Virus record (IMG/VR): IMGVR_UViG_3300007760_000034
Span: 1 to 41,822 of that record
Length of the DNA: 41,822 nucleotides
DNA from: a virus
Strand: one strand, 5' to 3'
The notes below the pieces were generated by a model, which did no database searches, was not told the origin of the DNA, and worked only from the letters and a program-made list of their open reading frames with translations. The position numbers and the translations under genes are program-made. Positions 2,759-41,822 of the stretch are shown piece after piece (position 1 is the first letter of the stretch; every line of letters starts with the position of its first letter).

Positions 2759-3445
2759 ATGGCTACTCTCACTTCGCTACTAACAGACGTACGAAACAAA
2801 CTCGACGAAACAACTTCGGGTCAATGGACCGACGCCGAGTTGCGTACATGGATAAACGAAGCGGCCCGCGACATGTCGCGCCGGTCGGAAACTTTGCAGT
2901 CCACTTCGTCTGTTTCGGTGTCTGCGGACACGCAGGAGTACACGTTGCCTACTGACACGTTGCGTGTCCACAGGGTTGAGTGGCGGCCCACAGCGTCGTC
3001 GAATGTGTACCCACTTGAGTACAGGGATTTCAACTCGATGGACACGGTGTGGTGGTCGTCGCAAACCACGTCAAAAGGGTATCCCACGTTTTACACAATG
3101 TGGGGGTATCCGCCGTCGTTGAAGATCGTGTTGTACCCGACTCCTTCTGAGGCGGGCACGTTGAAGGTGTATTACTACCAGCATTCCACCGATTTGGCGA
3201 CTGACGGTACTGCTGATTCTTCAACGGTGCCTGTTCCGGCTGGTTACGAAGACTTATGCACGACGTACTGCGAAATGGTTGCGTTGCGTAAGGACCGCGA
3301 TCCTCGGTGGCAGGAAGCCCGTGCGTTGTATATGGATTCGTTGACCGAAATGCTGGATCGGACGCGGCGTTGGACCGATCAGGGAGATTTTATTCAGGTT
3401 GGTCAAACGTATGTGCCGGGCTGGTTGTGGGGTAGCGAATGGTAA
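2759..3445 (+). CDS. Head-tail adaptor protein (SU10-adaptor type)
   Basis: A 228 aa protein with the layout of the phage SU10 adaptor family: an N-terminal helix pair (LTSLLTDVRNKLDE, then WTDAELRTWINEAARDMSRR), then QEYTLPTDTLRVHRVEW, a central beta region rich in aromatic residues (GYPTFYTMWGYPP, LKVYYYQHST) and a C-terminal helix (YEDLCTTYCEMVALRKDRDPRWQEARALYMDSL). These proteins form the ring joining the portal to the tail nozzle in podoviruses. Unusually, the gene is not beside the portal (28712-30490) but beside the ejection proteins. The start ATG 2759 has no clear ribosome site; TAACAT lies 6 bases upstream. Confidence 0.75.
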   Translation: MATLTSLLTDVRNKLDETTSGQWTDAELRTWINEAARDMSRRSETLQSTSSVSVSADTQEYTLPTDTLRVHRVEWRPTASSNVYPLEYRDFNSMDTVWWSSQTTSKGYPTFYTMWGYPPSLKIVLYPTPSEAGTLKVYYYQHSTDLATDGTADSSTVPVPAGYEDLCTTYCEMVALRKDRDPRWQEARALYMDSLTEMLDRTRRWTDQGDFIQVGQTYVPGWLWGSEW

Positions 3446-6063: not shown

Positions 6064-6077
6064 GTTAGGATTCTGAT

Positions 6078-7724: not shown

Positions 7725-10700
7725 GTGGCGACGTTCACGACGCCGGTACTGCCCGGTAGAACTAAGGGCCTAGATACTTCTAAGGATCGGTGGCGACGCA
7801 GGTCTGCGATCGCTATGCAAAACAATGTTCCGTTGGACATTGTTCGAGAGGTTTACCTTTACGATCAGGAGCGCGTGAACCGCGGCGGCAGCCCAATGTC
7901 TGACCGTGAGGCTGCGGTAGCGATCCTTGGCGCTCAGGGCAAGGGGGGTGAAACGGGTCGTATCGGCGGGTTTGTTGAGAACGCCGCGTCGGATTTGAGA
8001 GACATCGTTTTGGGTTTGCCGCAACTACCGGGGTTTATTTTGAAGGAACCCGCGGAGATGGGCGACCCGGAAACTGGTTTGGGTCCGTCGGTGTCGGCTG
8101 GGTTTGAAGCCTTGTCGGAGGGTGATTTCGGCAAGGGGATAGCGAAGATTGCTGGTGCTCCCGGTTTGCGTCTAATCCCCGGTTCGTTCACGGCGGAGAT
8201 GATCGGCGGTGGCTACGAGGGAGATAAGGGTCCGGGGGAACTGGCAAAGCATCCGTTGTTCACGTTTCTGGATTTGTTGCCGGTGGCGTCCAAGGCTGGT
8301 TTGACTGATGCTGCGTTGAGTCGTCTCACCGGGTCTAGCCCGTGGAAGCGGGCTGCTCAGAATCTGGAGAACCGTGGTTGGGGTCGTTCGGCTACGGCTA
8401 CGGCTCGCGAGTTCCGTAAGGGTCAGCGGCTCGCTGAGGAGGGTGTGATCGGCGAGTCTTCGTTGGGTCGCACCGGTGTTGGTACTCACAGCGAACTACA
8501 GCAACATGTTCTCAACTGGATCGACACGTTCGACGATGCTGAACTGACTGCTACGTGGGATTATTTGGAGCAGGGTCGTTGGAAGTCGGGTGATCCTCCT
8601 CCTAAGTGGGCGACGGATTCCGGCCGGGGTGATCAGTGGGTTTCGATGGCTGAGGACGCTAAGGCGATGGGCGACTGGTACGCCAAGCACGGTGAAACAA
8701 CCTCTGGCGAGGTGTTGTTGGTCAACGGGGAGCCGTATCCGAACACGCCGGGTGTCAGGAAGCATCTGAAAGACATTCAGGACGCTAAGGCTGGGAAGAA
8801 GCGAACCGGCAAGTCGAAGGAAACAACCGAGTCGAAGCGTGTCCGCGCTGAAACTGTTCATGCGGAGAAGACCGCGCAGATCGCCGATTTGGAAGCCGGG
8901 TTGTCTGTTGTCGATGTGGTCAGGTTCTCAGATGAGATAACCGAAGCGGTGTCTGCGACTGAACGGTTGTCGATGGTCGAGTTGGGTCAAGCCGACGACG
9001 TGGCTAAGGCTGAACGGGTTTTGAAGTCTGATACTGCGGCTGCTGAACGGTTGGCTCCGAAGCGTTCTCAGGTTGTTGAGGAGTCGCCGTGGCCTGAGGA
9101 TGTTCCAGCGTTGCGTCGCGGCGAGTCGGAGTGGTTGGAGGGCAGCCGTTCCCCAACTGTTGAGGGCGAAGTGGTTGCTACGAAGCAGACTGGTCGTGCC
9201 CCCACCACCGAGGAAGGCAAGTTGTTGGTGGTGCGTCAGAGGTTGGATGGCGAGGTTGTTGCGGAACGTGCAGCCGAGTTGATTGAGCGGCGTGTCGCGG
9301 CGCAGGAACACTTGAATCGTGTTGTGGCGTTGCGTCGGCTGACTCCGGCTCAGGCTCGTAATGTGAAGACGGCAGCGGAGGGCCGGTTGCATACGGGTTC
9401 GTTGGCGGATCGTGTCCGCGCTTTGAACGCCCAGATGGGTGACGCTGCCGTGAATCTGGATGAAACGATAACGGTTCCGAAGTTGGATTCGGTTGGCCGT
9501 CCGGTCGATGTGGAGATGACCCGGTTGGCGTACGAGGTCGACGAGTTGAAGGTCAAGGGTTGGGAAGAAAAGGTTGTTGACGGGACGACGTTTTCGAAGG
9601 AGCCGTCGAAAACGCGTGTAGCGAAGATGGTTCGCCGGTCGTTGAAGAAGCGCCGCAGTTCGCTGTTGGCTTCTGCTGAGGAGGCTGGTGCTTTCAGGGT
9701 TGGGACACCTGAGGCGGCTGAGGCTGTTCGTGTCAGGATTGGTCGGACAATCAACGACGAAGTTGTCGACTTGTTGGACAGGCATTTGACCGACGAGGCG
9801 ACGATTCGGGTTGCGAAGGGCCACGACCCTTCCGATTACCGCATCGACCATGTAACCGGCAAGACTCGCCCCGGCGACAGTTATCCGACTCGGTTGACGA
9901 CACGGGAACGTGACCTGATTCGAACGAAGCGGGGTACCCGCAAGGTTGTCGATGAGGGTGGCACCGAGTGGGAGATTTACGAGTTTGATTCAACGGTTGA
10001 GGCTAGTTGGGGTGCTCGCCGCACTCTCAGCAAGGAGTCTCCTGCTGCTGAGGGTGAACTGGTTCACGGCAACACGGCGTTCAAGAACTTTTCTGACGAG
10101 GCGTTGGAAAAGTTGGCGGTGATCGACGAGTGGATTGAGCGTGACGCCGCCCAGTTTGTCGAATCGGAACGCGCCGGTTTGACTGCCGAGGCTGCTGATC
10201 AGATAACGGTTGATTTGTTGGATGCTGCGAACGTGGATGCTGCCGAGGCGTTTGTCATGGTTGGTGGTCGGCCGGTGTCGGTTGCTGCTCTGCGTGTGTT
10301 GGATCGTGCTGCCGAGATTCTTCCTGAACGGTTGTCTGCCGGTGTGTCTCGTAGCCCGGAGTGGGAACCGATCCGTCAGATGGCTGAGGGGGATTTTGTA
10401 AAGCCCGGTGTTGCCATCGTTGAGTCTTCTTCTGAGCAGGCTGGCCGGTTGGCGGAGAACACGGTTCATTTGAATCAGATCGATGAACGGATCGCTGCGT
10501 TGGAGGCTGGCGCTAAGGCGGCTTCTGTTCCTGCTGACGAGGTGTTGTCTGCGGAACTGGCGTTGAATCGTCTCACGCAGTTGGAGTCGCAACTTCAGGA
10601 CCGTATCGCACGGGTGAAAGCGGGTGAAACTAAGCCGGGTTTGCGGGAAGTGAAAGAAACTTTGAAAGCGCACCCGGATGAAGCCGAGTTGCGAAACTTG

Positions 10701-13517
10701 TACGACCAGTTGGACGCCATTGATTCGCAGGGCACAGCGCACCCGTTGTTCAGCGTTAGGGACGATCTGGCTGCTGCTGCGGCCGCGTTGGAGGATGCTG
10801 GTATACGCGTCAAACCGACGCAGGCTAAGGCGAAGTCGGCTGCTGGTACTCGCCGGGTTCGCACGGTTACAGAACCCGGCGACCCGGCGGCTTACGCTGT
10901 CGCTAAGTCTCGTAGAAAGTCAACGGCCGGTAAGGTTGATTCGGCTCGGAAACGCAAGGCGCGGATCGACACGGCGTTCTCTACTCTCAAAGCGGCGATA
11001 ATCGGCACGGTGAAAAACCCCGGTCCGTTGCGTAAAGCCGAGATCGCTGCCCGTACCGGCGATTTGACAGCGGCTCGGAACCATCTTCGCGTAGCGCGAA
11101 ACAAACTTGATTCGAAGACGATGCAGGAGGTTCGCCGTCTGGCTGAAGACAAGTCTCCGAAACTGGCTAACGAGATTGCTTCTATCGAGGCACGCATCGA
11201 CGCTGTGTATGCAGATATGCCTACTAATCAGGCGCTCAAAACGTCGCGGAACCAGTTGGCTGGTGCCCGGCTCAGCCAAGCGAAGGCGGCTAGGGCCATC
11301 GAGTTGAACACGTCGGAGGAATCCCGGCTGGCCGCGAAGATTGCCGACGAAATGTCGGAAGCGGAGATCGCTGCCGCTAAGTGGGCTGACAATGTGCGTA
11401 ACTTGCCTGCGCGGCTGCAACCGATGTATAACCGGGTGCTTAGTTCGTTGTTGGCTAAGCGGCTGTCGGCTCCAACGGTGCCGGATAACGCTACCCGCAA
11501 GTTGACGTTCGGGAAGTACAAGGAGGCTGCTAAGGCTGCCGGTGTCGCAGACAAGGAGTTCAGGCTTCTTGAACGGGAGGCGTTTGAAACGGTTCATTCG
11601 CTGCGGGCGGCTGGTTACGAACCGGTGTGGTTGCCGCACCGTCAGGTCGGCAACCGGGGCCGCGCTCCCGGCAAACTGTTCGGTCAAAAGATTGTGACTC
11701 CGCAGGCGTTCAAGCAGCGGTACCTCAACCCGGAGCCTTACATCCGCAACCTCGCTGTCGCGTTTGAACAGAACTCCGCTGACTTTATTAGGCGCACAGC
11801 AACCGAAGCCTTGTATTTCGGCGACGAAGCCGCTGGGTTGGATGGTTTGTTCAACATGTTCGGTAAGACGTGGGACGACCTGATGGACATGTATTCGGAT
11901 GAGATAGCGGCTCAGCGTGCCGCTAACCCGCATGTTCCTCCACAAAACATTGCTCAACGGGTTATCCGTAAGGACTGGGCGACAGTCAACCCGACGAAAT
12001 GGGGGTTGAGTGAGAAGTGGGCACCGCAGTCGAAAATCAAATACAAGCGCCGGGGTTTGGGTGTCGACCCTGAGGATTCTGTGTTGGCGATCGAGAACAT
12101 TTACATGCCGCGCGGTGTGTCGGCAACGGTCGAGGGGATGCAGAAAACTGGTGGGCTGATCCCGTTTAGAAATACTTACGACCAGATCATGGACGTGTTC
12201 CGCGTGTCCGCGTTGGCGCTGTCTCCTCGGTTCTTGGTTTACAACGCTATCGGTGGTCTGGCGATGCTGATGGTCCGCACCGACCCGACGGTGCTGACGC
12301 AGTTGCAGCGCGCCAAGCAGTTTGTCGACGAGGGCAAACTGCCACCGGAGATTTCTACCGGTGCTGCGATGGTCGACCCGGATTTGACGAAGGCGTTCAC
12401 GCAGGACATTTCAAGGCTCGCGACCGACAAGCGCACCGGGTTTATGTGGGGCATCGGCGAGGGCCGATGGTTGGGGGAAACAATCCGCAACGTGCAGAAG
12501 GCTGCGAACAGGTCGTTCCAGATCAACGAGTGGTTTGACAACGTGTTCCGGGCCGCTGCTTATCTCCACGAGTCAGACAAGGCGCTGGCGCGGGGGGCCA
12601 CGGCAGCCGAAGCCGCTGAGTCTGGTATCAAGTTGGCAAACAAGATTCTGCAAGATTGGGACGCGATGCTTCCGTGGGAGCGCACCATCATGCGGCGCAT
12701 CTTCCCGTTCTACGGTTGGATGAAGCATGTGTTGAAGTACACGTTCACGTTGCCGTATGACCATCCGACACGGGTGGCGGTGCTCACCAACTTTGCTGCC
12801 AACGAGATGGAGGATTACCGCTCCGGGATTCCTCAATGGATGGCATCCACGTTCTTTATCGGCAAGGAAGGCCCGGATACGAAGCAATGGTCGGTGAACA
12901 TGCGGTCGATGAACCCGTTCGCGGACGTGGCCCGGTATGCCGACTTTGATTCACGCGAGTACGGGTCTGGTGTGGTCCTCGGGTTTTTGACGCAGATGTC
13001 TCCGATCGCGTCGTCGGTGATGGAGTCGATGGGTGTCAGCCCGATGTCTGGCCGCGCCCGGTTGTACCCGGAGATGACGTACGACCCGGAGACGGGGCGG
13101 CTGCGGTCTATGGCTCCCAACATTCTTCATTCGTTGCCGAAGTCGATTGTTCCTCAGGTAGAGGGGTTCGCTGGGCTGGTTGAACTGTCTGGCGTTCGGT
13201 CTACCAGCAGGGAACTACGCAACATGCGGGTCAACAACCCGGATGCGTTCGTGGGTCGTATCTGGTCGTCGTTCGGTTTGCCGTTTGCGCCTCGTAAACG
13301 GTCGCGTACGTTCGAGTTGCAGAGGTCTGCGCTGGCTCGTGAGCAGGCTGCGGGTGATGCTGTAAACCGGGCGTTGCGTACAGGCGACTGGGGAGATGCG
13401 CTAGGATACGAACAGGCGCGGATACGTGGCCAAGTGTTCAAGGTCGACAATCTGTACGCGCTGGCAAAACGCAACCCAGAACTATTGGAGGTGATCTTGA
13501 GTGCCTCGGGTCGGTAG
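7725..13517 (+). CDS. Very large internal virion (ejection) protein, 1930 aa
   Basis: The largest gene, read from GTG 7725, 6 bases after the preceding stop. Residues about 30-170 contain a compact N-terminal part (ASDLRDIVLGLPQLPGFILKEPAEMGDPETGLGPSVSAGF). Residues about 350-1300 are mostly charged helix and coiled coil. Residues about 1440-1830 are a conserved-looking block with aromatic and hydrophobic motifs (SPRFLVYNAIGGLAMLMV, WDAMLPWERTIMRRIFPFYGWMKH, NPFADVARYADF) that resembles a segment of other giant phage internal proteins. No catalytic motif was recognised. In tail-less-core podoviruses such proteins are packed in the capsid and ejected with DNA. Codon use matches the neighbouring late genes. 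Confidence 0.7.
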   Translation: MATFTTPVLPGRTKGLDTSKDRWRRRSAIAMQNNVPLDIVREVYLYDQERVNRGGSPMSDREAAVAILGAQGKGGETGRIGGFVENAASDLRDIVLGLPQLPGFILKEPAEMGDPETGLGPSVSAGFEALSEGDFGKGIAKIAGAPGLRLIPGSFTAEMIGGGYEGDKGPGELAKHPLFTFLDLLPVASKAGLTDAALSRLTGSSPWKRAAQNLENRGWGRSATATAREFRKGQRLAEEGVIGESSLGRTGVGTHSELQQHVLNWIDTFDDAELTATWDYLEQGRWKSGDPPPKWATDSGRGDQWVSMAEDAKAMGDWYAKHGETTSGEVLLVNGEPYPNTPGVRKHLKDIQDAKAGKKRTGKSKETTESKRVRAETVHAEKTAQIADLEAGLSVVDVVRFSDEITEAVSATERLSMVELGQADDVAKAERVLKSDTAAAERLAPKRSQVVEESPWPEDVPALRRGESEWLEGSRSPTVEGEVVATKQTGRAPTTEEGKLLVVRQRLDGEVVAERAAELIERRVAAQEHLNRVVALRRLTPAQARNVKTAAEGRLHTGSLADRVRALNAQMGDAAVNLDETITVPKLDSVGRPVDVEMTRLAYEVDELKVKGWEEKVVDGTTFSKEPSKTRVAKMVRRSLKKRRSSLLASAEEAGAFRVGTPEAAEAVRVRIGRTINDEVVDLLDRHLTDEATIRVAKGHDPSDYRIDHVTGKTRPGDSYPTRLTTRERDLIRTKRGTRKVVDEGGTEWEIYEFDSTVEASWGARRTLSKESPAAEGELVHGNTAFKNFSDEALEKLAVIDEWIERDAAQFVESERAGLTAEAADQITVDLLDAANVDAAEAFVMVGGRPVSVAALRVLDRAAEILPERLSAGVSRSPEWEPIRQMAEGDFVKPGVAIVESSSEQAGRLAENTVHLNQIDERIAALEAGAKAASVPADEVLSAELALNRLTQLESQLQDRIARVKAGETKPGLREVKETLKAHPDEAELRNLYDQLDAIDSQGTAHPLFSVRDDLAAAAAALEDAGIRVKPTQAKAKSAAGTRRVRTVTEPGDPAAYAVAKSRRKSTAGKVDSARKRKARIDTAFSTLKAAIIGTVKNPGPLRKAEIAARTGDLTAARNHLRVARNKLDSKTMQEVRRLAEDKSPKLANEIASIEARIDAVYADMPTNQALKTSRNQLAGARLSQAKAARAIELNTSEESRLAAKIADEMSEAEIAAAKWADNVRNLPARLQPMYNRVLSSLLAKRLSAPTVPDNATRKLTFGKYKEAAKAAGVADKEFRLLEREAFETVHSLRAAGYEPVWLPHRQVGNRGRAPGKLFGQKIVTPQAFKQRYLNPEPYIRNLAVAFEQNSADFIRRTATEALYFGDEAAGLDGLFNMFGKTWDDLMDMYSDEIAAQRAANPHVPPQNIAQRVIRKDWATVNPTKWGLSEKWAPQSKIKYKRRGLGVDPEDSVLAIENIYMPRGVSATVEGMQKTGGLIPFRNTYDQIMDVFRVSALALSPRFLVYNAIGGLAMLMVRTDPTVLTQLQRAKQFVDEGKLPPEISTGAAMVDPDLTKAFTQDISRLATDKRTGFMWGIGEGRWLGETIRNVQKAANRSFQINEWFDNVFRAAAYLHESDKALARGATAAEAAESGIKLANKILQDWDAMLPWERTIMRRIFPFYGWMKHVLKYTFTLPYDHPTRVAVLTNFAANEMEDYRSGIPQWMASTFFIGKEGPDTKQWSVNMRSMNPFADVARYADFDSREYGSGVVLGFLTQMSPIASSVMESMGVSPMSGRARLYPEMTYDPETGRLRSMAPNILHSLPKSIVPQVEGFAGLVELSGVRSTSRELRNMRVNNPDAFVGRIWSSFGLPFAPRKRSRTFELQRSALAREQAAGDAVNRALRTGDWGDALGYEQARIRGQVFKVDNLYALAKRNPELLEVILSASGR

Positions 13518-17904: not shown

Positions 17905-17997
17905 TTATATGCCTAGAGGTTCTGTAATCACGACCCAGATGACGTAAACGAGGCCCCATATGACAAGCCACATGATCGCCCCTGACAACTCATCCAC
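17905..17997 (-). CDS. Putative single-span membrane peptide, 30 aa
   Basis: A GTG frame that begins in the last codons of the VWA-protein gene (GTG overlapping its stop) and reads MDELSGAIMWLVIWGLVYVI and on to a TAA at 17905. Almost the whole second half is one hydrophobic span rich in Trp, Val and Ile. An internal ATG at 17973 would give a 22 aa version preceded by AGGGG. It fills a gap in an otherwise gap-free operon, and the membrane pattern is not expected by chance, but its size keeps the call tentative. Confidence 0.4.
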   Translation of the reverse strand: MDELSGAIMWLVIWGLVYVIWVVITEPLGI

Positions 17998-20248
17998 GGA
18001 TCGAGTCGGATATGCGGTCGGCTAGACCTTCCACAACCTCGACGACACCTGCTTCGGTGTCGTAGAGGTTGACCGCTATGGTGTCTAACCCATATTCCTT
18101 CGGCGAGTCGGTTCCTACACCTACTCCGACGACGTGGAGTCTCCGGTCTGGGAGTTGCGCCATCGCTTTCGCCCGTCTGCACTGTGCTTCGAGCATGACC
18201 CTCTGGTTGTCATGGTCCTCGGCGGGCATCGCACCGTCGGTGTAGTAGAGCAAGATCCGGTCGGTTGCCCGTTGCGTGCAGAGCATGTCAATGTAGGTTC
18301 GCATCGTCAACCCGTCGAGGTTCTGATGGGCGGCATGGAGCGAAGCGACACCCGATTTGGCTGCTTCGTCCCACGGTTCCGCAAAGTTCTTGACGAGTTG
18401 GATGGTCGCAAGCGACGCCACATTTGATCCGACCCTACCCCGCAAATCGTCGGCCACTTCTGGGTCACAGTCGACGTTGTGATCGTCTTCACCCACCAGG
18501 TACCGGCCTCCGGTGTGCCCGGCTACCGCAAACGCAATACCTAGCCGCGCAAGCAGCGTTGCTTGCGCGTACGCGAGTTCCACGAGGTATTCGTTGACAT
18601 CTCCAAGGGTTGAACCGGATTGGTCGACTCCGATGAGTACGGCATAGGATCGTTTCCGGGGTTTGTCGATCCGGCGAAATGCTCGACGGTTACCGGTCGG
18701 AACTCGTGCAAGTTTGCTGCCATGCAGCCTTCCTCGCACAAGGTTCGGTGTCGACGCTGACCTCCTGTTCATGCCGAGTGCGTCCGCCAACTTGCGTTGC
18801 GATTTATGAACCGGCGCTTGAACTTTCACTTCGAGGTCGCTGGATTGGTCGAACCCGCCTCCTGCCGGGAACTTGTAGTCGGCGAGCAACTTCACCCCGT
18901 CACCGTATACCGGTACTTTTTCGTAGTCGGGTCGCAGGATCAGAGGCACGTAGCGGCCTTCACCCGAATCTCCAACCAGTCCACTTCCGCCCGGCATTTG
19001 CATCAGGTCGTCGAGGTGTTCCGAGGTGTCCCCGGCTCGGGACTCGTTCATCGCTGCTTGTATCTCAGCCAGAACGGGTTCGAGACTCTCGACGGGTTTA
19101 TCGGCTCCACGGTCAGTCCATTTGGCTCGACCGAACGCCTCTGCTCGAGCAGATCGGTCTGACCGTGCGACAAGTTCCGACCTTTCTTGTTCGAGTTTCT
19201 TTTTGTCTCGAAGCCGTTGGCTTTCTTTCAACTTGCCGTCGTCGCCGAGGTCTTTACCGGACTTGATCGGCTGGGATGCTGCCCGACCGTTTCCGGTGCG
19301 GGAGGTGTCCTCCCCGGTCTGCTCGGGTTGCATACTTTCGAACAACCCGTATGTTTCTCGGGCGTATTCGGCGAGCACAATCCCGGCAGCGACCGCTTCG
19401 GCGGTGGTTTCGAGTTTGAACTTGTCGAGAACACGTTTGACGTTCGGGTCGTTGAGACAGGCCAGAACCGTTTCCGACTTCAGCACCGGTTTCAGGTCGA
19501 GATCGTGTTCGACCTCCAAGTTGACTGCGACACCTACTTGGTATCCGACGGGGCCTTCGACGATGCCTTCACCGGCAGCGGCCCGCACGACGAGCCCTTC
19601 GGCGAGCCGCGCCATCTGTTGACCTAAAGCGGATCGGCTATCGCCGACTGCTTTGTTGATGCGGGCGTCTTCGAAGGCGTTGGCCAGCAGGGGTGCGTCG
19701 GGGTTGAACCATGACGCAACTTCCAACCCTGATCTCGCCAAAACCCGTGGCCCGTTTACACATTGCCGGATGTAATACAACCCTGCGTCGTCGTGCCTGT
19801 CTATGAACGCTTCGGAGAACTCTTCCGGCATACCTTCCATCAGTTTGGCGATGCCGAGTTCTACTCGTTGGCAGAACTCGACATCAACGGGTTTCGTTGA
19901 GCCTTGGCTGATGTGGGCTGCTTCGTGTAACAGCACCCCGACGGTGATGTGGTAGAGGCACGATTCGGGTTCTTCGTCGCATACGCACGGGTTGTCCGGG
20001 TCTATGTCGGCGAAACCGGGGTCTAACGGTAAGTGAACCGTGGCTCCGTCTGTGCAGGGTCCCTGCGAGTGTTGGTTGATTGATACCCGCAGCCCGTTGT
20101 CTCCTGCTGAGGTTCTCACTATGTCTGTGAGCCTCGGCAGGAGACGGGCCGCTACCCGTGCCGCTTCTGCGTAGGATTCGGCCGTGGCGGGCTGGTTGAC
20201 GGGTAGTTCTATACCGGGGTGTTCGACGCTACTCAAGTTCCACCCCAC
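17990..20248 (-). CDS. VWA-domain protein with HEAAH metallopeptidase-like motif (DUF2201/CobT-like)
   Basis: A 752 aa protein, GTG start, partner of the AAA+ gene just upstream (20-base overlap). Residues about 100-118 read YHITVGVLLHEAAHISQG, an HExxH zinc-peptidase motif (H108, E109, H112). Residues about 330-420 are a charged Lys/Glu/Asp linker. From about 535 comes a von Willebrand A domain with an intact metal-ion site: DQSGS (D542, S544, S546), a Thr near 649 and YTDG (D671). A metallopeptidase-like domain plus VWA next to a MoxR ATPase is the layout of DUF2201-type bacterial proteins; CobT-like phage proteins share the VWA part. Substrate unknown. Cysteines at CVCDEEPESC lie just before the HEAAH motif. 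Confidence 0.82.
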   Translation of the reverse strand: MGWNLSSVEHPGIELPVNQPATAESYAEAARVAARLLPRLTDIVRTSAGDNGLRVSINQHSQGPCTDGATVHLPLDPGFADIDPDNPCVCDEEPESCLYHITVGVLLHEAAHISQGSTKPVDVEFCQRVELGIAKLMEGMPEEFSEAFIDRHDDAGLYYIRQCVNGPRVLARSGLEVASWFNPDAPLLANAFEDARINKAVGDSRSALGQQMARLAEGLVVRAAAGEGIVEGPVGYQVGVAVNLEVEHDLDLKPVLKSETVLACLNDPNVKRVLDKFKLETTAEAVAAGIVLAEYARETYGLFESMQPEQTGEDTSRTGNGRAASQPIKSGKDLGDDGKLKESQRLRDKKKLEQERSELVARSDRSARAEAFGRAKWTDRGADKPVESLEPVLAEIQAAMNESRAGDTSEHLDDLMQMPGGSGLVGDSGEGRYVPLILRPDYEKVPVYGDGVKLLADYKFPAGGGFDQSSDLEVKVQAPVHKSQRKLADALGMNRRSASTPNLVRGRLHGSKLARVPTGNRRAFRRIDKPRKRSYAVLIGVDQSGSTLGDVNEYLVELAYAQATLLARLGIAFAVAGHTGGRYLVGEDDHNVDCDPEVADDLRGRVGSNVASLATIQLVKNFAEPWDEAAKSGVASLHAAHQNLDGLTMRTYIDMLCTQRATDRILLYYTDGAMPAEDHDNQRVMLEAQCRRAKAMAQLPDRRLHVVGVGVGTDSPKEYGLDTIAVNLYDTEAGVVEVVEGLADRISDSIRG

Positions 20249-21326
20249 TCAACTCTTCCGGTATCCGTGTCAGCAGGTCCCCTATGGGGTCGCTGGAGTC
20301 TTGGACAAGTTCGGCTGCTGTTGGCTTGGAGTACTTCGCCCAGTCGTGATGGTCGAGTACGTGTACGACTTTGCTGAACGATTGGGTGTCCATCCGTTCG
20401 TACACTTTCGACATGGCTTCACGCACCGGGTGGTATTGGAGAAGTTCCACGAAGTTCATCAACGAACGTGTACCTGCGGTGATACCGAGGTTTCCTTCGT
20501 CGATTGACTTGCGTAGGTCCTTCCATGCCATCAACCCGCACACCACCTGCCACGCCGGAACCCTGTCTAGTTCCCTAGACTCGATGTGGTTGAGGAGTAT
20601 CTCCGCTTCGATCTTCGAGTCCGGCCACCCGACGGCGATGTGCGACAACCTGTCGGCATCTGCTTCGGATAGTGGCAGCAAACCTGCGTACTGGGGCATC
20701 CAGTCGGGGTTTCCTGTTGCGATGATGAAGTTGTGTGCGTGCTTGAGCAGGATGCGTCCGTCGTAGGCGTCTAACGCGAGTTGCGCTGAGTCGTCGAGGA
20801 CGGGTCGTGCCACATGCAGCACAGCGGGTGGTGCAGCGTTCCACTCGTCGATGCAGATAACTCCCGGTCGCCCGAATGATCGGGCTAGACGGGACTGCAC
20901 CCACTCTGTTGTGGAACCTTTCAGTTCGTAGTGACCTGTCACGTCTTCCCGTTCGCTTGTCTCTCCGAGCGGGATGCGCTCGAATGGGACTCGCATCAGG
21001 AAGGCCATGTGGCGGGCCAACTGTGTTTTCCCTACCCCTGACGGACCCCACATCATTGGAACCTTTCCTCGTTGGAGGTCGACGGCCACCGAGTAGACGA
21101 GGCCGTCGTGGTCAATGAAGGTGGATTCGTTGGGTATCTTGATCCGATCCGACTCGGGAAACGATTCGGGGTCGTACTTTGGTAGTTCCACTCCTTTTGG
21201 CCCGTATGTGAACGAGTCAGGGGTGGGTACTGTTACGACACCCGATTGTTTCCCGATCTTCTCGGGGTGGACCACGATGGGTTCGAGAACTTCCCGTGGT
21301 TCCTCATGTTCGGGTTTTCTTAGCAC
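20229..21326 (-). CDS. MoxR/CobS-type AAA+ ATPase
   Basis: A 365 aa protein. After about 75 variable residues comes the ATPase: Walker A GPSGVGKT (94-101), the MoxR-type loop ETSEREDVTGHYEL (122-135), Walker B VICIDEWN (156-163), sensor 1 ATGNP (203-207) and an Arg-containing region ADADRLSH (223-229). MoxR ATPases form hexamers that remodel a substrate delivered by a VWA partner, here the overlapping downstream gene. GTG 21326 has GGAAGGAG upstream. Annotation as cobalt chelatase CobS would be misleading because no corrin genes are present. Confidence 0.87.
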   Translation of the reverse strand: MLRKPEHEEPREVLEPIVVHPEKIGKQSGVVTVPTPDSFTYGPKGVELPKYDPESFPESDRIKIPNESTFIDHDGLVYSVAVDLQRGKVPMMWGPSGVGKTQLARHMAFLMRVPFERIPLGETSEREDVTGHYELKGSTTEWVQSRLARSFGRPGVICIDEWNAAPPAVLHVARPVLDDSAQLALDAYDGRILLKHAHNFIIATGNPDWMPQYAGLLPLSEADADRLSHIAVGWPDSKIEAEILLNHIESRELDRVPAWQVVCGLMAWKDLRKSIDEGNLGITAGTRSLMNFVELLQYHPVREAMSKVYERMDTQSFSKVVHVLDHHDWAKYSKPTAAELVQDSSDPIGDLLTRIPEELSGVELE

Positions 21327-36310: not shown

Positions 36311-37660
36311 ATGGCAGGCGCAGGTTATAGAACATGGTCGGCTTTGCAGTCGGTCCCGGCGGCGACTCTGCAAACTTACCTTCAAGATCAGGTTGTGATG
36401 GTGTTCGCCGATGCGACGGCCCGCGACGCAGGTGTCACTTCCCCAACAGAGGGGATGGTCTGCTACCTGAAAGACATAGATCAGATTCAGTCGTACAACG
36501 GCGCATCGTGGGCGTCGGTCACGTCGGTGTTGACTGGCGATGTGTTGACCGAGGATTCCACCAATCTGCGTGTCGGCATCAACGAATCGTCTCCGGGTGC
36601 AGCGTTGCAGGTCGAAGCCAAGGCCGCATCGTCGGATCAGATGGTGCGGATCTATTCGCTAACCGGGTCGGAACACGACGCTGATCTGTCGTTCGCTCTC
36701 GATAACGGTACTGGTGAGACGTTCACGATCGGTATAGACGACTCCGATGCCGACAAGTTCAAGATTTCAGACGCAGCCACGCTGGGTACCAACGACCGGT
36801 TGGTGATCGACTCGGCAGGGGATGTCACAGTCGCTGGCGGTGTCACAGCCGATTTGACTGGAAATGTGACAGGCAACGTCACAGGTGATGTGACAGGCAA
36901 CGTCACAGGTGATGTGACTGGAAATGTGACAGGCAACGTCACAGGTGATGTGACTGGCGACGTGTCAGGTTCTGCTGGTTCAGCAACCGGCAACGCCGCT
37001 ACCGCTACGGCGTTGGAAACAGCCCGCACCATTGGTGGCACGTCGTTCGACGGTACAGCGAATATTACCCCAGCGAATATCACGGTTGCCGACACAAACG
37101 ATGCGACTTGCAATGTTGCCTTGTTTGAGTCGGCCACAGGGGATCTCCCCCCGAAAACCGATACCGGACTCACTTACGATGCGTCGTCTGGCACTCTGAC
37201 CGCCACAGCCCTCGCAGGACCCGTGACAGGTGACTTGACCGGAAACGTCACAGGCAACGTCACAGGCGACGTGACAGGCGACGTGACAGGTGACTTGACC
37301 GGAAACGTCACTGGCAACGTCACAGGCGACGTGACAGGCGACGTGACGGGTGATTTGACAGGCAATGCGTCAGGGACCGCTGCGACAGTCACAGGTGCCA
37401 CCCAGTCCGCTATCACCGCTGTAGGCACCCTCACATCTCTGTCCGTGACAGGACAGATAACAGCGTCCGACGACATCTTCTTGGATGGCACCGATCAGCG
37501 GATCGTGTTCGAAGGGTCCACAGCCGACGCCTACGAAATGTTCTTCCAGTCGACCAACCCGACGACAGCCGACAGGGTTATAACCCTCCCCGACGCGACC
37601 GGCACGGTAGCGTTGGCAGATAGCGCAAACCTCATAATCTCAACCCAAGTATTCTCATAG
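36311..37660 (+). CDS. Tail fibre with TG[D/N]V repeats
   Basis: A 449 aa protein. The N-terminus (GYRTWSALQSVPAATLQTYLQDQVVMVFADATARDAGVTSPTEGMVCYLKDIDQIQSYNGASW) is a virion-attachment head of a kind common in phage fibres. Two blocks of tetrapeptide repeats follow (GNVTGDVTG; residues about 181-220 and 305-355), which form a slender beta-helical or collagen-like shaft. The C-terminal part (YEMFFQSTNPTTADRVITLPDATGTVALAD) is a common fibre motif that links to the tip. The ATG follows the preceding stop directly. It would bind the host surface. Confidence 0.8.
   Translation: MAGAGYRTWSALQSVPAATLQTYLQDQVVMVFADATARDAGVTSPTEGMVCYLKDIDQIQSYNGASWASVTSVLTGDVLTEDSTNLRVGINESSPGAALQVEAKAASSDQMVRIYSLTGSEHDADLSFALDNGTGETFTIGIDDSDADKFKISDAATLGTNDRLVIDSAGDVTVAGGVTADLTGNVTGNVTGDVTGNVTGDVTGNVTGNVTGDVTGDVSGSAGSATGNAATATALETARTIGGTSFDGTANITPANITVADTNDATCNVALFESATGDLPPKTDTGLTYDASSGTLTATALAGPVTGDLTGNVTGNVTGDVTGDVTGDLTGNVTGNVTGDVTGDVTGDLTGNASGTAATVTGATQSAITAVGTLTSLSVTGQITASDDIFLDGTDQRIVFEGSTADAYEMFFQSTNPTTADRVITLPDATGTVALADSANLIISTQVFS
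36853..36972 (+). repeat. Fibre shaft repeat block 1
   Basis: About ten tetrapeptide-coding units of the type ACAGG(C/T)AACGTC and ACAGGTGATGTG lie in tandem, encoding (TGNV)/(TGDV). Some are identical in DNA over 12-24 bases, indicating recent expansion. Confidence 0.85.
37223..37368 (+). repeat. Fibre shaft repeat block 2 (60-bp period)
   Basis: A 60-bp unit (encoding five TG[D/N][V/L] tetrapeptides) occurs about two and a half times with few changes: positions 37223, 37283 and 37343 begin equivalent units. A higher-order unit of five tetrapeptides has been duplicated as a block. Confidence 0.88.
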
Positions 37661-37667
37661 GAGCCAC

Positions 37668-38030
37668 ATGGCTACATATTCCAAATCTAAACTGTCAGGG
37701 TCAACTGACGGCCGGGCAATCAAAGTGGCTGCTACCGCTTCGGCTGGGACCACGATCCACACCGGGTCGTCTACGGCTACAACCTACGACGAAATCTGGC
37801 TGTACGCCCAGAACACTTCCGCATCTGATGTGAAGTTGACGGTTGAGTGGGGTGGAACAACTTCCCCTGATGACCTGATCGAGTTGACGATTACGACGGA
37901 GGCCGGGTTGACGCTTGTCGCTCCCGGTTTGTTGATCAAGGGCAATGCGACCCCGTTGGTCGTGAAGGCGTTCGCTGCTTCAGCGAATGTGGTCACCCTG
38001 CACGGCTACGTCAACCAGATTACGGCTTAG
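37668..38030 (+). CDS. Small beta-sandwich virion protein, 120 aa
   Basis: Begins MATYSKSKLSGSTDGRAIKV and carries YDEIWLYAQNTSASDVKLTVEW, then VAPGLLIKGNATPLVVKAFAASANVVTLHGYVN. This is the same strand-turn pattern as the 164-568 protein, so the two are probably distant relatives. It sits between two fibre genes and may cap or decorate the fibre. Function unproven. Confidence 0.6.
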   Translation: MATYSKSKLSGSTDGRAIKVAATASAGTTIHTGSSTATTYDEIWLYAQNTSASDVKLTVEWGGTTSPDDLIELTITTEAGLTLVAPGLLIKGNATPLVVKAFAASANVVTLHGYVNQITA

Positions 38031-38039
38031 GAGGTTCTG

Positions 38040-39107
38040 ATGCCGAGGATTGAACGGTTTTTCGCTAATCAGAACGTCGCTGACTGGACATCCGGTTCTC
38101 TCGGTGGTGGTGGCGGCGGCGGTGACATCATCACCGAAGGCGGCGAGATGTCCGTCTACCCGAATCCGAGCGGTGGTTACTACACCGTCCACTGGATGAC
38201 TTCCTCCACGACGTTCTACGTCCACTCCGGCGAGGTTGAGGCAGAGGTTCTCCTCCTCGGCGCAGGAGGCACCTCCGGATTGTCAGACAGGATTCCAGTG
38301 GCGCCCACCACGTCATCGGTGCAGGCAGGCGGTGGCGGGGCTGGCGCTTGGGTTGAGTTGCCTGCTGAACCTCTCACTTCGACCGGTGGACCTTCCGGTA
38401 ACGGTTCGTACCCGATCGTTATTGGTGCCGGATCTCATTCATACAACACAAAGGGAGGAGACACGACGGGTTTCGGGAGCACCGCCCCCGGTGGCGGTAA
38501 GGGTGGCACTTCACCGTCCAGTCCATTTACTTATTCGGCACCCGCTTTGGACGGAGGGTCGGGAGGCGGTTCGCCCGGTTGGGCGTTTCCCACCCCGACT
38601 TCTTGGCCGCAGACGAAACCGACCAGCGGGTACGGGACCGCTGACCATCCTTCCGGCAACCCCGGTGGTTACGGGAACTGGAACCCCGGCAGCAGTACCA
38701 GTTATTACGTCTACATAGCGGGGGGTGCTGGTGGAGGTTCAGGACCGACTGGTACGGCCGGATCTCCGGCTACTGAGTGGCCGTCCCATCCATCGTGGGC
38801 GTTCGGCGGTGTTCGGGGAGCGGGTTCACCAAACTCCTTCCGAACCGGTAGCCCACAGTTGTACGCCGGAGGTGGCTACGGCGGCGGCTCTTATCAAGGC
38901 CCGTACCCCGATCAGATGGGCAATCACACCGATTACCAGTATCCGGGGCCAGAAGGCGGTACTCCCACTTCTTCGACACAGAGGCGGAACCGGGAAGGTT
39001 CTGCGGGTAATGGCAACGCCTACGGTCCCGGCGGTTGGCCGACTACGGATCGCGTCTACGACTCTGCACCCGGTGTGGTGATTGTCCGGTACACGGTAGG
39101 AGCCTGA
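38040..39107 (+). CDS. Glycine-rich tail fibre/adhesin protein
   Basis: A 355 aa protein with a Gly-rich run near residue 22, then MSVYPNPSGGYYTVHWMTSSTTFYVHSG and VEAEVLLLGAGGTSG, the start of glycine-rich phage adhesin domains. Most of the remainder is Gly/Pro/Ser/Thr/Tyr in irregular repeats (GAGSHSYNTKGGDTTGFGSTAPGGGKGG). It ends with PGVVIVRYTVGA, the closing strand of this family. Such proteins bind host receptors at fibre tips. The abundant Gly-Pro is of interest because three 2OG oxygenases follow. Confidence 0.8.
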   Translation: MPRIERFFANQNVADWTSGSLGGGGGGGDIITEGGEMSVYPNPSGGYYTVHWMTSSTTFYVHSGEVEAEVLLLGAGGTSGLSDRIPVAPTTSSVQAGGGGAGAWVELPAEPLTSTGGPSGNGSYPIVIGAGSHSYNTKGGDTTGFGSTAPGGGKGGTSPSSPFTYSAPALDGGSGGGSPGWAFPTPTSWPQTKPTSGYGTADHPSGNPGGYGNWNPGSSTSYYVYIAGGAGGGSGPTGTAGSPATEWPSHPSWAFGGVRGAGSPNSFRTGSPQLYAGGGYGGGSYQGPYPDQMGNHTDYQYPGPEGGTPTSSTQRRNREGSAGNGNAYGPGGWPTTDRVYDSAPGVVIVRYTVGA

Positions 39108-39109
39108 TC

Positions 39110-39574
39110 ATGGCCGGTTACACCCCGATGTGGCATTACGCAAAGGTCAACGACGACAACATCGTCGTTGCTGTGATGACGCTCAACAACCAAGACGGCG
39201 AGGACGAGGCTCACGGCGCTGCGATCTGCGAGCAACTAACAGAAGATCCCGGCCCGTGGATCAAGGGCGCTCACACCGACGACCTGTTCAGAAAGATCGG
39301 CCCCGGTATCGGTATGACTTGGGACGAGGCTCGGGATGGGTTCATTCCGCAACTGCCCGGTCCTCCGTCAGATCCGTGGATGTCATGGGTGATAAACGAA
39401 ACGACTCTCCGGTGGGAGCCACCGAACGGCTACCCCGACGGCTACGACCTATACACAACGTGGACGAGCAACGAGTGGCTCTGGGATGAGGAGAATGTGG
39501 CTTGGGTCAACGTCCCGCAGCCAGACCTATCGAATCGACCATTCCCACCCGGTGAAGAACCACCGAGTTCCTAG
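39110..39574 (+). CDS. Hypothetical tail-region protein, 154 aa
   Basis: Starts at ATG 39110, 2 bases after the previous stop; a longer in-frame extension is rejected because it runs into the fibre gene. The sequence MWHYAKVNDDNIVVAVMTLN, IGPGIGMTWDEARDGFIPQLPGPP and LRWEPPNGYPDGY matches a family of small cyanophage-type tail-associated proteins (YAKV.DNIVV ... FIPP.P ... W.PP). Probably a fibre-associated protein; function unknown. Confidence 0.65.
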   Translation: MAGYTPMWHYAKVNDDNIVVAVMTLNNQDGEDEAHGAAICEQLTEDPGPWIKGAHTDDLFRKIGPGIGMTWDEARDGFIPQLPGPPSDPWMSWVINETTLRWEPPNGYPDGYDLYTTWTSNEWLWDEENVAWVNVPQPDLSNRPFPPGEEPPSS

Positions 39575-39577
39575 CCG

Positions 39578-40219
39578 ATGTCGTACAGGTTTCTCCATAA
39601 TCCCAAGTCGCCCGAATACTTGGAGTGGAAGTCCCAAGTTCTCAGCCCGACGTTCCCGTGGTATTGGAACCAGTCAACTGCGGGACCGGTATGCCTCACA
39701 GAACTAGGGCTGACCGCAGATGACGACACATCCTTCTGGGGTCACTGTGTGCTGTCACGCCCTGACTCGGCTCCCTACTGGGACGGGGTGAGTTCTCCGG
39801 TCTGCTCCGAACTGTTTGAGCAGACCGTGTGGGTGATGAATGAGATCGCCACCGTCAACAATGTCTCGTTCCAGCCGATACGAATGGCGTTCAACTGCGT
39901 GGTACCCGGCGAGGTGCCCATGTCGATCCCGCATGTTGACCACTACTTCCCGCACGACACCTTCATCATCTACCTGTCTGAGTTCACGGGTGGCAACACA
40001 TGGTTGGAGGGACTTGGAGAAGTCGAACCGGAGGAGGACATGATCCTCATGTTTGACGGAGATGTGCGCCATGCCGGTTGCAGGCCCACGGGAAGCAACG
40101 AGCGCCGTGTTGTGTTTGTCGGAACCAGCGGATTCGTCCCTGAGCACAAGATCCACCGCACCCCCGACGCACGCGCCCAATACTTTGAACCCCTATTACC
40201 CGACAACCATAAGGAGTGA
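39578..40219 (+). CDS. 2OG-Fe(II) oxygenase, first of three
   Basis: A 213 aa protein with the cupin-type iron site: IPHVDHYFPHDTF supplies H119 and D121, MFDGDVRHAGCRP supplies H165, and ERRVVFVGTSG supplies the Arg (176/177) that binds 2-oxoglutarate. The strand LSEFTGGNTWLEG between them is typical. Such enzymes use 2OG and O2 to hydroxylate a protein side chain, nucleobase or small molecule; substrate unknown. It lies directly after the fibre genes and before two further oxygenases. Confidence 0.82.
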   Translation: MSYRFLHNPKSPEYLEWKSQVLSPTFPWYWNQSTAGPVCLTELGLTADDDTSFWGHCVLSRPDSAPYWDGVSSPVCSELFEQTVWVMNEIATVNNVSFQPIRMAFNCVVPGEVPMSIPHVDHYFPHDTFIIYLSEFTGGNTWLEGLGEVEPEEDMILMFDGDVRHAGCRPTGSNERRVVFVGTSGFVPEHKIHRTPDARAQYFEPLLPDNHKE

Positions 40220-40224
40220 CCTAA

Positions 40225-40848
40225 GTGTCCATTGCAACTGACCTAGCCGAACCTCAGACCACTATGAGTGCAGAACCCATCTGGGTTGATCCGTTCATCT
40301 GCCAGTACCAGATGACAGACACGTCGTGTTGTCCTGAAGCAATCGTGAATGCGAACCGGTCTACCCGGTGGGGCATCTCCGGCACAGCGGGCGGAACAAA
40401 CGCTTACATGCGCGACTCAGACCAGTTGCATTTCTTGGAGGCATCGCCTCCGGTGGAGCATGAACCAATCCTCGCTTTCGCTCAAGAATGCTTGGACCAT
40501 TACGTTGGTGAACGTAAGCAGGCCGGGGAGGTGCCCCGGTTCGGGTACACGGAGGGCTACAACATTCTCCGCTACAAGCCCGGTCAGGCATACCACGCCG
40601 TCCATTCAGACCAAGGCCCGGCTTCCCCGATAGGCAACAGGCATCTCACGTTCTGCATGTACCTGAACACGATCACCGACGGCGGTGAGACAGACTTTCC
40701 GACGCAGGAAGCAAAGGTGTCACCGGTGGAGGGTCGGGCTGTGATCTTCCCGGCTGTCTGGACTCATGCCCACCGGTCGCTGCCAGCGAAGGTTGACCGC
40801 TACCTGTTCAACGTGTTTTGGGGATTCTTCCCACCACAGGCAGCATGA
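40225..40848 (+). CDS. 2OG-Fe(II) oxygenase (prolyl-4-hydroxylase-like), second of three
   Basis: A 207 aa protein, GTG start (ATG 40264 is an alternative). It has the prolyl-4-hydroxylase layout: YNILRYKPGQAYHAVHSDQ with H127 and D129, LTFCMYLNTITDGGETDFP, then VIFPAVWTHAHRSLPAKVDRYLF with H183 and a basic residue (R192) for 2-oxoglutarate. GGETDFP is a hallmark of the P4H group. In phages these enzymes' targets are unknown; hydroxylation of Pro-rich fibre proteins encoded just upstream is a testable idea. Confidence 0.85.
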   Translation: MSIATDLAEPQTTMSAEPIWVDPFICQYQMTDTSCCPEAIVNANRSTRWGISGTAGGTNAYMRDSDQLHFLEASPPVEHEPILAFAQECLDHYVGERKQAGEVPRFGYTEGYNILRYKPGQAYHAVHSDQGPASPIGNRHLTFCMYLNTITDGGETDFPTQEAKVSPVEGRAVIFPAVWTHAHRSLPAKVDRYLFNVFWGFFPPQAA

Positions 40849-41438
40849 TGGGCACCAAGTTTGCTGCGTGGACGAAACCCGACAAGGGGACTTGGTACAC
40901 GTCGGTCAAGTCAGGTATCCCCGCTGACGATCTTGATTTCATCACCCGGTATGCGCTGTGGCGTGAAGCCACCGAAGAATGGGAAGGTGACGACCAATCA
41001 CCCGGCATGTTCGCCGCCTACAAAGACCCGGTGTTCATGTTCAACCAGCACAGGTTGCATCCTGTCATGGAGGAAGTCACCGGGCTGCGGCTGCATCAGA
41101 CGTACAACTACTTCAGGGTGTACCGGCCGGGTGCGATTCTGGAGAAGCACACCGACCGGCCAGCGTGCGAGATTAGTTGCACAATGCTGATCGGTTCCAA
41201 CTACGGCGGCGCATGGCCGATTCTTGCCGACCATCCTGCACATGGTGAAACGTCGGTGACGCAGCAACCCGGCGACATGGTTGTGTACCGGGGCAACGAG
41301 GTGGAACATTGGCGCGACCCGTTCGACCCAGCCCTGTACGGCGGCGGGCTGGACTCGTACCATGTGCAGGTGTTCACTCATTATGTTGATGCTGACGGCC
41401 CGTATGCCATGTGCGCCGGGGACGAGGTGCGGCTGTGA
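40845..41438 (+). CDS. 2OG-Fe(II) oxygenase, third of three
   Basis: Begins ATG ATG at 40845, overlapping the previous stop. The 197 aa product has GAILEKHTDRPACEIS (H102, D104), the double-stranded-helix strand QQPGDMVVYRGNEVEHWRDPF (H155) and YHVQVFTHYVDADGP at the end. This is the pattern of phage and bacterial oxygenases related to clavaminate/phytanoyl-type enzymes. It differs from the other two, so the three are a cluster of divergent members, not recent copies. Confidence 0.8.
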   Translation: MMGTKFAAWTKPDKGTWYTSVKSGIPADDLDFITRYALWREATEEWEGDDQSPGMFAAYKDPVFMFNQHRLHPVMEEVTGLRLHQTYNYFRVYRPGAILEKHTDRPACEISCTMLIGSNYGGAWPILADHPAHGETSVTQQPGDMVVYRGNEVEHWRDPFDPALYGGGLDSYHVQVFTHYVDADGPYAMCAGDEVRL

Positions 41439-41460: not shown

Positions 41461-41643
41461 ATGGGTTTAGCCCGTGACGCTGCGTCAGCGTATGGAGTGT
41501 TGGCAGGCCACACCGCTGAGGAATGGGCCACATACAGGCAAGCCCTCAGGGATTTGCCGTCCGTGTATTCCCGCGTGTCTGAGGTTGTGTGGCCGAACGA
41601 CCCGCCGACGCAGGCAGCCATCGACGCAGAAGCAGCCGCATAA
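41461..41643 (+). CDS. Tail fibre assembly chaperone-like protein, 60 aa
   Basis: The protein contains WATYRQALRDLPSVY and EVVWPNDPPT, the conserved 'W..YRQALRDL...V.WP..P' core of phage tail-fibre assembly proteins, and an Ala-rich end. The family helps fold or attach fibres. TAGAAT lies 6 bases before the ATG, and no clear ribosome site is seen. Position at the end of the fibre cluster fits. Confidence 0.75.
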   Translation: MGLARDAASAYGVLAGHTAEEWATYRQALRDLPSVYSRVSEVVWPNDPPTQAAIDAEAAA

Positions 41644-41646
41644 CAC

Positions 41647-41822
41647 ATGGAATGGATCGGATTCGCAGGGCTAATCAGTGCCGCAATGGTCAGCGGAGTA
41701 TTCGCTGTCATTGCGTCACGATATCGACGCGAGAATACGTCGCAGCATGCAGCGAATCAGGTTCGGCTCAACGGGATAGCGGACGATATCACTGAGATTG
41801 GTAAAGATATTCGGTCTGTACG
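41647..41822 (+). CDS. Small membrane protein, 5' part, continues at 1-171
   Basis: ATG 41647 begins MEWIGFAGLISAAMVSGVFA, one hydrophobic span, followed by VIASRYRREN and a polar helix. The frame runs off the window end and continues exactly at base 1, giving 75 aa in total. It starts 3 bases after the chaperone-like gene stop. Holin-like or another lysis accessory is inferred from the one-span layout and the nearby endolysin. Confidence 0.7.
   Translation, partial: MEWIGFAGLISAAMVSGVFAVIASRYRRENTSQHAANQVRLNGIADDITEIGKDIRSV
41704..41822. repeat. Terminal direct repeat (circular-assembly overlap), right copy
   Basis: Identical to 1-119; see that entry. The two copies should be counted once in the real genome. 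Confidence 0.95.

Follow-up and report, generated by a model that had tools for sequence, protein, structure and literature searches.

Organization of the fibre module

The window analysed here is a stretch of viral DNA of 41,822 bases, the entire IMG/VR virus record IMGVR_UViG_3300007760_000034. Identical copies of a 119-base direct repeat were found at both ends of the record (positions 1-119 and 41704-41822), which suggests that the window probably represents an entire phage genome assembled as a circle. Portal and terminase genes are present. A fibre module occupies the right end on the + strand in the order fibA, f120, fibB, g154, OG1, OG2, OG3 and Phage_tail_APC. The subject of this study is the set of three putative Fe(II)/2-oxoglutarate (2OG) oxygenase genes OG1, OG2 and OG3 and their relation to fibB, which encodes a glycine-rich fibre.

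The first gene of the module, fibA (36311..37660), encodes a repetitive fibre protein of 449 amino acids with GDVTGNVTG repeats, which matched the PHROG tail fiber family phrog_30742 (E=2e-18). It is followed by f120 (37668..38030), encoding a small protein of phrog_30535 that precedes the glycine-rich fibre in relatives as well, and by fibB (38040..39107), the predicted receptor-binding fibre of 355 amino acids with 35 prolines, which is the proposed substrate. The small fibre-module protein g154 (39110..39574; phrog_7759, E=2e-22) is located between fibre and enzymes both in the window and in relatives. Then follow OG1 (39578..40219; 213 amino acids), OG2 (40225..40848; 207 amino acids) and OG3 (40845..41438). 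The last gene, Phage_tail_APC (41461..41643), encodes a short tail fibre assembly chaperone (PF16778, E=2.7e-9; phrog_4912, tail fiber assembly). For OG3 the start was re-assigned: translation most likely begins at the ATG at 40845, which overlaps the stop codon of OG2 in an ATGA sequence, rather than at the TTG at 40818. The intergenic gaps from fibB through g154, OG1 and OG2 to OG3 amount to only 2, 3, 5 and -4 nucleotides, as expected for one operon. The first-pass annotation of this DNA had placed the oxygenases directly after two fibre genes. A fibre module indeed lies upstream, but it comprises four genes (fibA, f120, fibB and g154), and it is g154 that directly precedes OG1.

The three oxygenase genes

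Each of the three consecutive genes carries one HxD motif of its own (HVD119 in OG1, HSD127 in OG2 and HTD102 in OG3), as had been noted before, and the HxD/E...H facial triad of the 2OG-Fe(II) oxygenase superfamily was found in all three proteins. In alignments, H119, D121, H165 and R177 of OG1 were kept in 6/6 sequences, as were H102, D104, H155 and R157 of OG3 (HxD...HWR). For OG2, H127 and H183 were present in 8/8 sequences, D129 in 6/8 (E in the other 2), and R or K at position 192 in 8/8. A 2OG-anchoring arginine, previously called probable in each enzyme, is plausible in OG1 and OG2 and was not assigned in OG3.

OG2 belongs to the Pfam family PF13640 (E=2.4e-11). Its profile matched solved prolyl-4-hydroxylase (P4H) chains, namely 3itq and 5hv0 (both E=1e-11) and 2jig (E=3e-7). 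Such a P4H profile match was obtained for OG2 only among the three. OG2 is, as predicted from its sequence, a P4H relative, in agreement with the earlier statement that one enzyme is of this type. OG1 showed no Pfam match and belongs to phrog_274. Its structure model (predicted local distance difference test, pLDDT, 68.8) was compared with the PDB using Foldseek, and the best matches included PHD2, the HIF prolyl hydroxylase, and the P4H of Pseudomonas putida (E from 1.8e-5, TM score up to about 0.5). According to this model, OG1 is predicted to fold like the HIF/P4H prolyl hydroxylases. Bacterial and algal P4Hs (5hv0, 3itq, 2jig), PHD2 and the P. putida P4H with EF-Tu (4iw3) thus resemble OG2 by profile and OG1 by fold, the latter likeness resting on the model; they have the HxD...H...R/K residues in common with both proteins, at low overall identity. 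OG3 was assigned to phrog_2954 (E=2e-41) and gave neither a Pfam match nor a credible PDB profile match. A homologue in the cyanophage S-CREM1 (match 64253-64762) is annotated as a 2OG oxygenase in the S-CREM1 record, and it is this annotation together with the iron motif that places OG3 as oxygenase-like in the superfamily.

The three proteins belong to different PHROGs, which rules out three copies of one gene and agrees with the earlier view that this is not simple duplication. Profile comparison by hhalign gave probabilities of 0.3% for OG3 versus OG2 and 7.9% for OG1 versus OG2, values which we judged uninformative on relatedness. The PHROG labels "DNA endonuclease V" (phrog_274, OG1) and "ferrochelatase" (phrog_2954, OG3) were rejected, since both sequences hold HxD...H and OG1 folds, as modelled, like a prolyl hydroxylase. 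Both names have by now spread into RefSeq phage records for these oxygenase-type families.

The glycine-rich fibre fibB

FibB consists of 23% glycine and 9.9% proline. It had been described as rich in Gly-Pro. The composition bears out the abundance of both residues, but only 5 "GP" steps occur in total and the longest G-x-x run is 5. Therefore, fibB is not collagen-like. In addition, no Collagen Pfam match was obtained, and a collagen-like substrate with long G-x-y triplet runs was rejected for fibB. A match to PF21722 (E=8e-4) remained under the cut-off of that family. The structure model (pLDDT 76.7, predicted TM score 0.78) consists of an N-terminal helix, a beta-sandwich and a glycine-rich part. 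The best PDB match found by Foldseek was the fibre of cyanophage Pam3 (7ypx), a modest one (E=7e-4, TM scores 0.32/0.43), and searches of BFVD returned glycine-rich phage proteins with E values down to 2e-16. FibB is predicted, from this modest match, to have the architecture of the Pam3 receptor-binding fibre (helix, beta-sandwich and glycine-rich lattice), and it is probably the fibre that grips the host.

For the Pam3 fibre, passages of PMC9608196 describe helix, TNF-like and glycine-rich domains, a dedicated chaperone, and variable loops at the distal end, for which receptor binding is proposed. The Pam3 gp24/gp25 pair of fibre and chaperone and the S16 gp38 adhesin share the N-terminal helix, beta-sandwich, glycine-rich lattice and variable distal loops with fibB, and the module in the window likewise encodes a chaperone, as Pam3 does with the phage-encoded gp25 type (PMC9608196). 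These passages on Pam3 and S16 describe no modification enzyme, and, unlike the fibres described there, fibB has its high proline content mainly in variable columns. In an alignment of 40 glycine-rich fibres the glycines occupied conserved columns (mean 0.81), and the prolines of fibB occupied variable, often gapped columns (0.47).

The locus in relatives

Relatives were gathered via OG2, which yielded 15 loci, one of them from the same phage. Enough upstream sequence was available for 12 of the others, and in 10 of these f120 and a glycine-rich fibre lie upstream of OG2. The two exceptions are L012, where the sequence breaks off at the fibre, and L010, in which other small genes and a chaperone lie in between. 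Behind OG2, OG3 is present in each of L003 to L010 and missing in L012 and L014; contigs L011, L013, L015 and L016 end too early to judge. The full trio was seen in this phage only, i.e. in the window and in the contig behind L002, L017 and L027, which is 99.5-100% identical in these proteins. The notion that the three enzymes always travel together was not supported. In relatives, OG2 and OG3 remain behind the fibre, and the slot of OG1 is empty or filled by a sulfotransferase (L003:3196-3933; PF13469, E=2.7e-16) between g154 and OG2. By eye, a protein at L148:2693-3265 resembles this sulfotransferase. Relatives of OG1 were found away from fibres as well, for example in L018.

Other loci carry longer arrays. 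Four oxygenase-type genes in a row occur in L025. L029 contains two glycine-rich fibres with oxygenases behind each, and its arrays also hold a flavin halogenase (PF04820, 5.6e-102) and a NodU-type carbamoyltransferase (PF16861, 7.6e-56), at 5493-6983 and 10160-11638. Genes of other kinds were seen at glycine-rich fibre genes: NUMOD3/GIY-YIG homing-type endonuclease genes adjoin them, in loci assigned by eye as L032, L034 and L039, and proteins judged by eye to be glycosyltransferase-like are encoded directly downstream in L102 (3480-5286) and L160 (13487-14062).

Adjacency of the enzymes to glycine-rich genes

The gene order was analyzed in 16 aquatic phage records, which were searched for PF13640, PF13759, phrog_274, phrog_2954, PF04820, PF16861 and PF13469. 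The records had been picked for matching the enzymes, so the number of enzymes per record is no population estimate; the adjacency test is independent of that choice. After mapping to our own gene calls, 234 enzymes and 39 glycine-rich genes were obtained (glycine cut-off 17%, compared with 18% for the contig loci). Four family matches fell on no called gene; weak phrog_274 matches were not counted, nor was one match right at the beginning of W06, and W02 was used minus its last 96 bases. A total of 67 of the 234 enzymes lay at most 10 genes downstream of a glycine-rich gene, compared with 14.2 expected from 2000 circular shifts that preserved the clustering of the enzymes (shift maximum 38, p=0.0005). 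Within 6 genes downstream 44 enzymes were found. Upstream, the count was 15/234. An excess was seen for halogenases (9/19 within 3 genes versus 0.4 expected) and for the OG3 family (7/11 within 10 genes versus 1.0 expected). The OG1 family showed 11/38 within 10 genes versus 2.4 expected, with no excess within 3. All 14 records with a glycine-rich gene had two or more enzymes in this 10-gene range downstream. The other two of the 16 lack such a gene by our definition, yet contain many oxygenases.

In a second test, loci were retrieved with the non-enzyme markers g154 and f120, which gave 136 loci with a glycine-rich gene. L118 duplicates the window's relative and was omitted. The density of oxygenases was 16/789 genes near the fibre versus 8/1370 elsewhere (Fisher p=0.004). 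Pfam families were tallied for those 117 of the 130 non-redundant near genes that encode 100-450 amino acids and for 117 genes sampled from 455 far ones. Five PF13640 and two PF13759 members were found among the near genes versus one PF13759 among the far genes, and PF13640 was not among the 25 families listed, out of 52, for the latter. The adjacency is real and specific to glycine-rich fibres, and it spans T4-like cyanophages, pelagiphages and the window's own lineage.

One explanation of this adjacency is that the fibre locus is a hot spot of gene gain, where unrelated auxiliary enzymes pile up without acting on the fibre. The homing-type genes that adjoin these fibres and the OG1 relatives found elsewhere (L018) fit such a view. 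However, the enrichment is limited to some enzyme classes, and other large genes away from glycine-rich genes showed no excess: for genes of at least 700 amino acids more than 12 genes distant from glycine-rich genes, 37 were counted versus 49.9 expected at 6 genes and 66 versus 73.3 at 10. The close packing of the nine oxygenase-type genes of S-CREM1 and the co-variation with proline described below also argue against a hot spot, which we regard as quite unlikely to be the explanation.

Proline content of fibres with and without enzymes

Proteins longer than 600 amino acids and fibres near contig ends were omitted from the composition tests; background-corrected, regional and clustering tests also omitted proteins shorter than 180 amino acids. 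Among non-redundant glycine-rich fibres, the proline content was 6.1% in the 41 with an enzyme within 4 genes downstream and 2.5% in the 130 without (p=6e-12). Counted per locus, the values were 5.9% (39) and 2.4% (97). The difference remained once the proline level of the contig itself had been subtracted (p=8.5e-11), and was significant in all three guanine-plus-cytosine (GC) strata (p=0.024, 0.00016 and 0.00019). In nearest-neighbour pairs it was positive in 32/41 (p=4.5e-6). It was concentrated inside the glycine-rich region (6.5% versus 2.2%, p=7e-11) compared with the remainder of the protein (4.6% versus 3.5%, p=0.027). Seven of the 10 proline-rich fibres scored as lacking an enzyme sit in loci or records that do contain oxygenases. 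Loci with OG3 averaged 8.1% proline versus 4.0% in those without it (9 versus 19 loci, p=1.5e-4), a post hoc comparison that includes several near-duplicates. The 34 glycine-rich proteins linked to oxygenases only were proline-rich. The nine linked to halogenases were mostly proline-poor and contained more histidine (2.8% versus 0.4%) and tryptophan (1.5% versus 0.6%).

This pattern of proline content suggests that the substrate is the fibre itself. Alternatively, the enzymes might modify host surface molecules such as lipopolysaccharide, exopolysaccharide or outer-membrane proteins during infection, for instance blocking superinfection or readsorption of virions. Fibre and enzymes would then lie together because both concern one receptor. 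The adjacency data from the 16 records and the fibre-marker loci also fit this alternative, and glycosyltransferase-like and methyltransferase genes do occur near some glycine-rich fibres. It leaves unexplained, however, why proline is enriched within the glycine-rich region of the fibre, and among solved structures it is prolyl hydroxylases that come closest to OG1 and OG2. We consider action on the host surface rather unlikely.

Clusters in known cyanophages

Comparable clusters were found in well-known phages. In S-CREM1 a "collagen-like" glycine-rich gene is followed by a halogenase and then by an unbroken row of nine oxygenase-type genes, including a JmjC gene; most genes of this array overlap by 4-8 bases. 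Syn10 contains three glycine-rich genes, then two halogenases, then a series of oxygenases. Of the two halogenase genes, the second (L352:10497-12089, minus strand) is VirX1 (6qgm, residues 1-530, E=0), and one protein of the cassette is JmjC_2 (E=1.3e-16). The order in syn9 is as in Syn10, behind a gene annotated as tail fibre. The VirX1 cluster is hence of a like kind to that of the window, which lacks a halogenase. We know of no natural substrate of VirX1, and the gene order suggests the glycine-rich protein encoded beside it as a candidate.

Passages in the literature offer several other roles for these phage genes: nitrogen and 2-oxoglutarate metabolism (PMC3037559), DNA repair beside uvs genes (PMC9146016), reprogramming of host metabolism (PMC9602691) and, for halogenases, pyrrolnitrin-type chlorination or antibiotic protection (PMC9964418). 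In PMC9301287 a link of viral P4H to tail-fibre collagen is considered possible, and the use of the enzyme is called cryptic. In the passages of the open-licence literature that were searched, no proposal was found that such enzymes modify glycine-rich receptor-binding fibres. An involvement in host metabolism (2-oxoglutarate/nitrogen signalling), repair or antibiotic synthesis, as advanced in PMC3037559, PMC9146016 and PMC9964418, would agree with the position of most oxygenases of the 16 records outside fibre modules. A general 2-oxoglutarate sink, however, would have no need of many divergent families packed behind glycine-rich fibres, and we regard these roles as very unlikely for the enzymes at the fibre.

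Proposed function of OG1, OG2 and OG3

On balance, the main role of OG1, OG2 and OG3 is probably to modify the fibre tip after translation and so to alter receptor binding or stability. The operon would represent a fibre-maturation cassette in which fibB is the glycine-rich receptor-binding tip of the tail fibre, and f120, g154 and the APC protein would be its partners or chaperones. The three enzymes, acting as Fe(II)/2-oxoglutarate oxygenases, would catalyse a modification of fibB before assembly, most likely proline hydroxylation and possibly that of further side chains, within the variable loops that lie between glycine-rich strands. Such a modification may adjust how the receptor is recognized, improve stability or help to withstand changes in the host, and could thereby influence adsorption. 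The first-pass annotation had proposed a module that hydroxylates fibre proteins or host surface molecules, and had called for a survey of its association with fibre genes. That survey brought out an adjacency specific to glycine-rich fibres and the co-variation with proline, without a constant trio of enzymes. Fibre hydroxylation has become the leading idea.

Several observations weigh against this inferred modification of the fibre. The near-identical contigs L011, L013, L014 and L015 possess OG2 and have only 1.9% proline; therefore OG2 alone is no predictor of proline, and OG2 as the cause of a high proline content is unsupported. The histidine and tryptophan pattern at halogenase loci stems mainly from one homologous family. 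An oxygenase was found at most 6 genes downstream in only 12 of the 136 fibre-marker loci; most such fibres therefore need none. Of the enzymes in the 16 records, 167/234 lie outside the 10 genes downstream of a glycine-rich gene, and carbamoyltransferases showed no excess (1/17 near glycine-rich genes), which leaves them unsupported as regular cassette members. When large genes near glycine-rich genes were included, these too gave a slight excess at 10 genes (107 versus 90.1, p=0.044). Finally, lineage effects may contribute to the proline signal, as phylogenetic independence is limited. At 35% linkage nearly all sequences formed one cluster and the test was without power; at 45%, 40 clusters were obtained, 20 only with and 19 only without enzymes (p=0.027).

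Taken to its extreme, this last point would mean that marine T4-like phages and pelagiphages simply have both proline-rich fibres and many oxygenases, with no functional link. The few independent units left by clustering at 35-45% identity and the origin of many comparison fibres from other phage groups speak for it. The proline difference nevertheless holds within the GC strata, after background subtraction and in the nearest-neighbour pairs, and members of the window's lineage (L002, L003, L004 and L008) have 7-10% proline versus 0.7-3.4% in their nearest partners. A pure lineage effect appears highly improbable.

Two known systems offer analogies for modification of the fibre. The Chlorella virus PBCV-1 reportedly encodes a prolyl-4-hydroxylase that is thought to act on viral proteins. 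It is a virus of eukaryotic algae and is said to have collagen-like repeats, whereas the window represents a tailed phage with a non-collagen glycine-rich fibre. In pathways for ribosomally synthesized and post-translationally modified peptides, a gene-encoded protein lies beside a variable set of tailoring enzymes; by contrast, the product here would be a structural virion protein, with no leader peptide or export known.

Elsewhere in the window, a pair of genes at 17993-21323 on the - strand matches the PHROGs of a CobT-like cobalamin biosynthesis protein and a CobS-like ATPase. The proteins encoded at 7725-13517 (1930 amino acids) and 3439-6063 (874 amino acids) had no PHROG match at E<=0.001.

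Implications for aquatic phages

In related phages the cassette is longer and contains further oxygenases and JmjC-type protein hydroxylases as well as flavin halogenases, with sulfo- or carbamoyltransferases as rare members; therefore a phage-specific set of enzymes may decorate the tip of the fibre. A tentative generalization, which we hold to be possible rather than probable, is that aquatic tailed phages hypermodify their receptor-binding fibre tips by such cassettes, halogenation included, and that the substrate of VirX1 is the neighbouring glycine-rich protein. The same enzyme classes, with sulfo- and carbamoyltransferases as occasional members, would put non-standard residues on the glycine-rich loops. 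Virion proteome datasets are reported for S-CREM1, S-SCSM1 and S-SZBM1 in parts of the published literature.

The oxygenases and halogenases of cyanophages are numerous, unexplained and classed as auxiliary metabolic genes. If many of them decorate receptor-binding fibres, the reading of these genes would change and VirX1 would gain a candidate substrate. Hypermodification, if true, would extend the chemistry of host recognition past the 20 amino acids and would add to it a chemical layer that is not visible from sequence alone.

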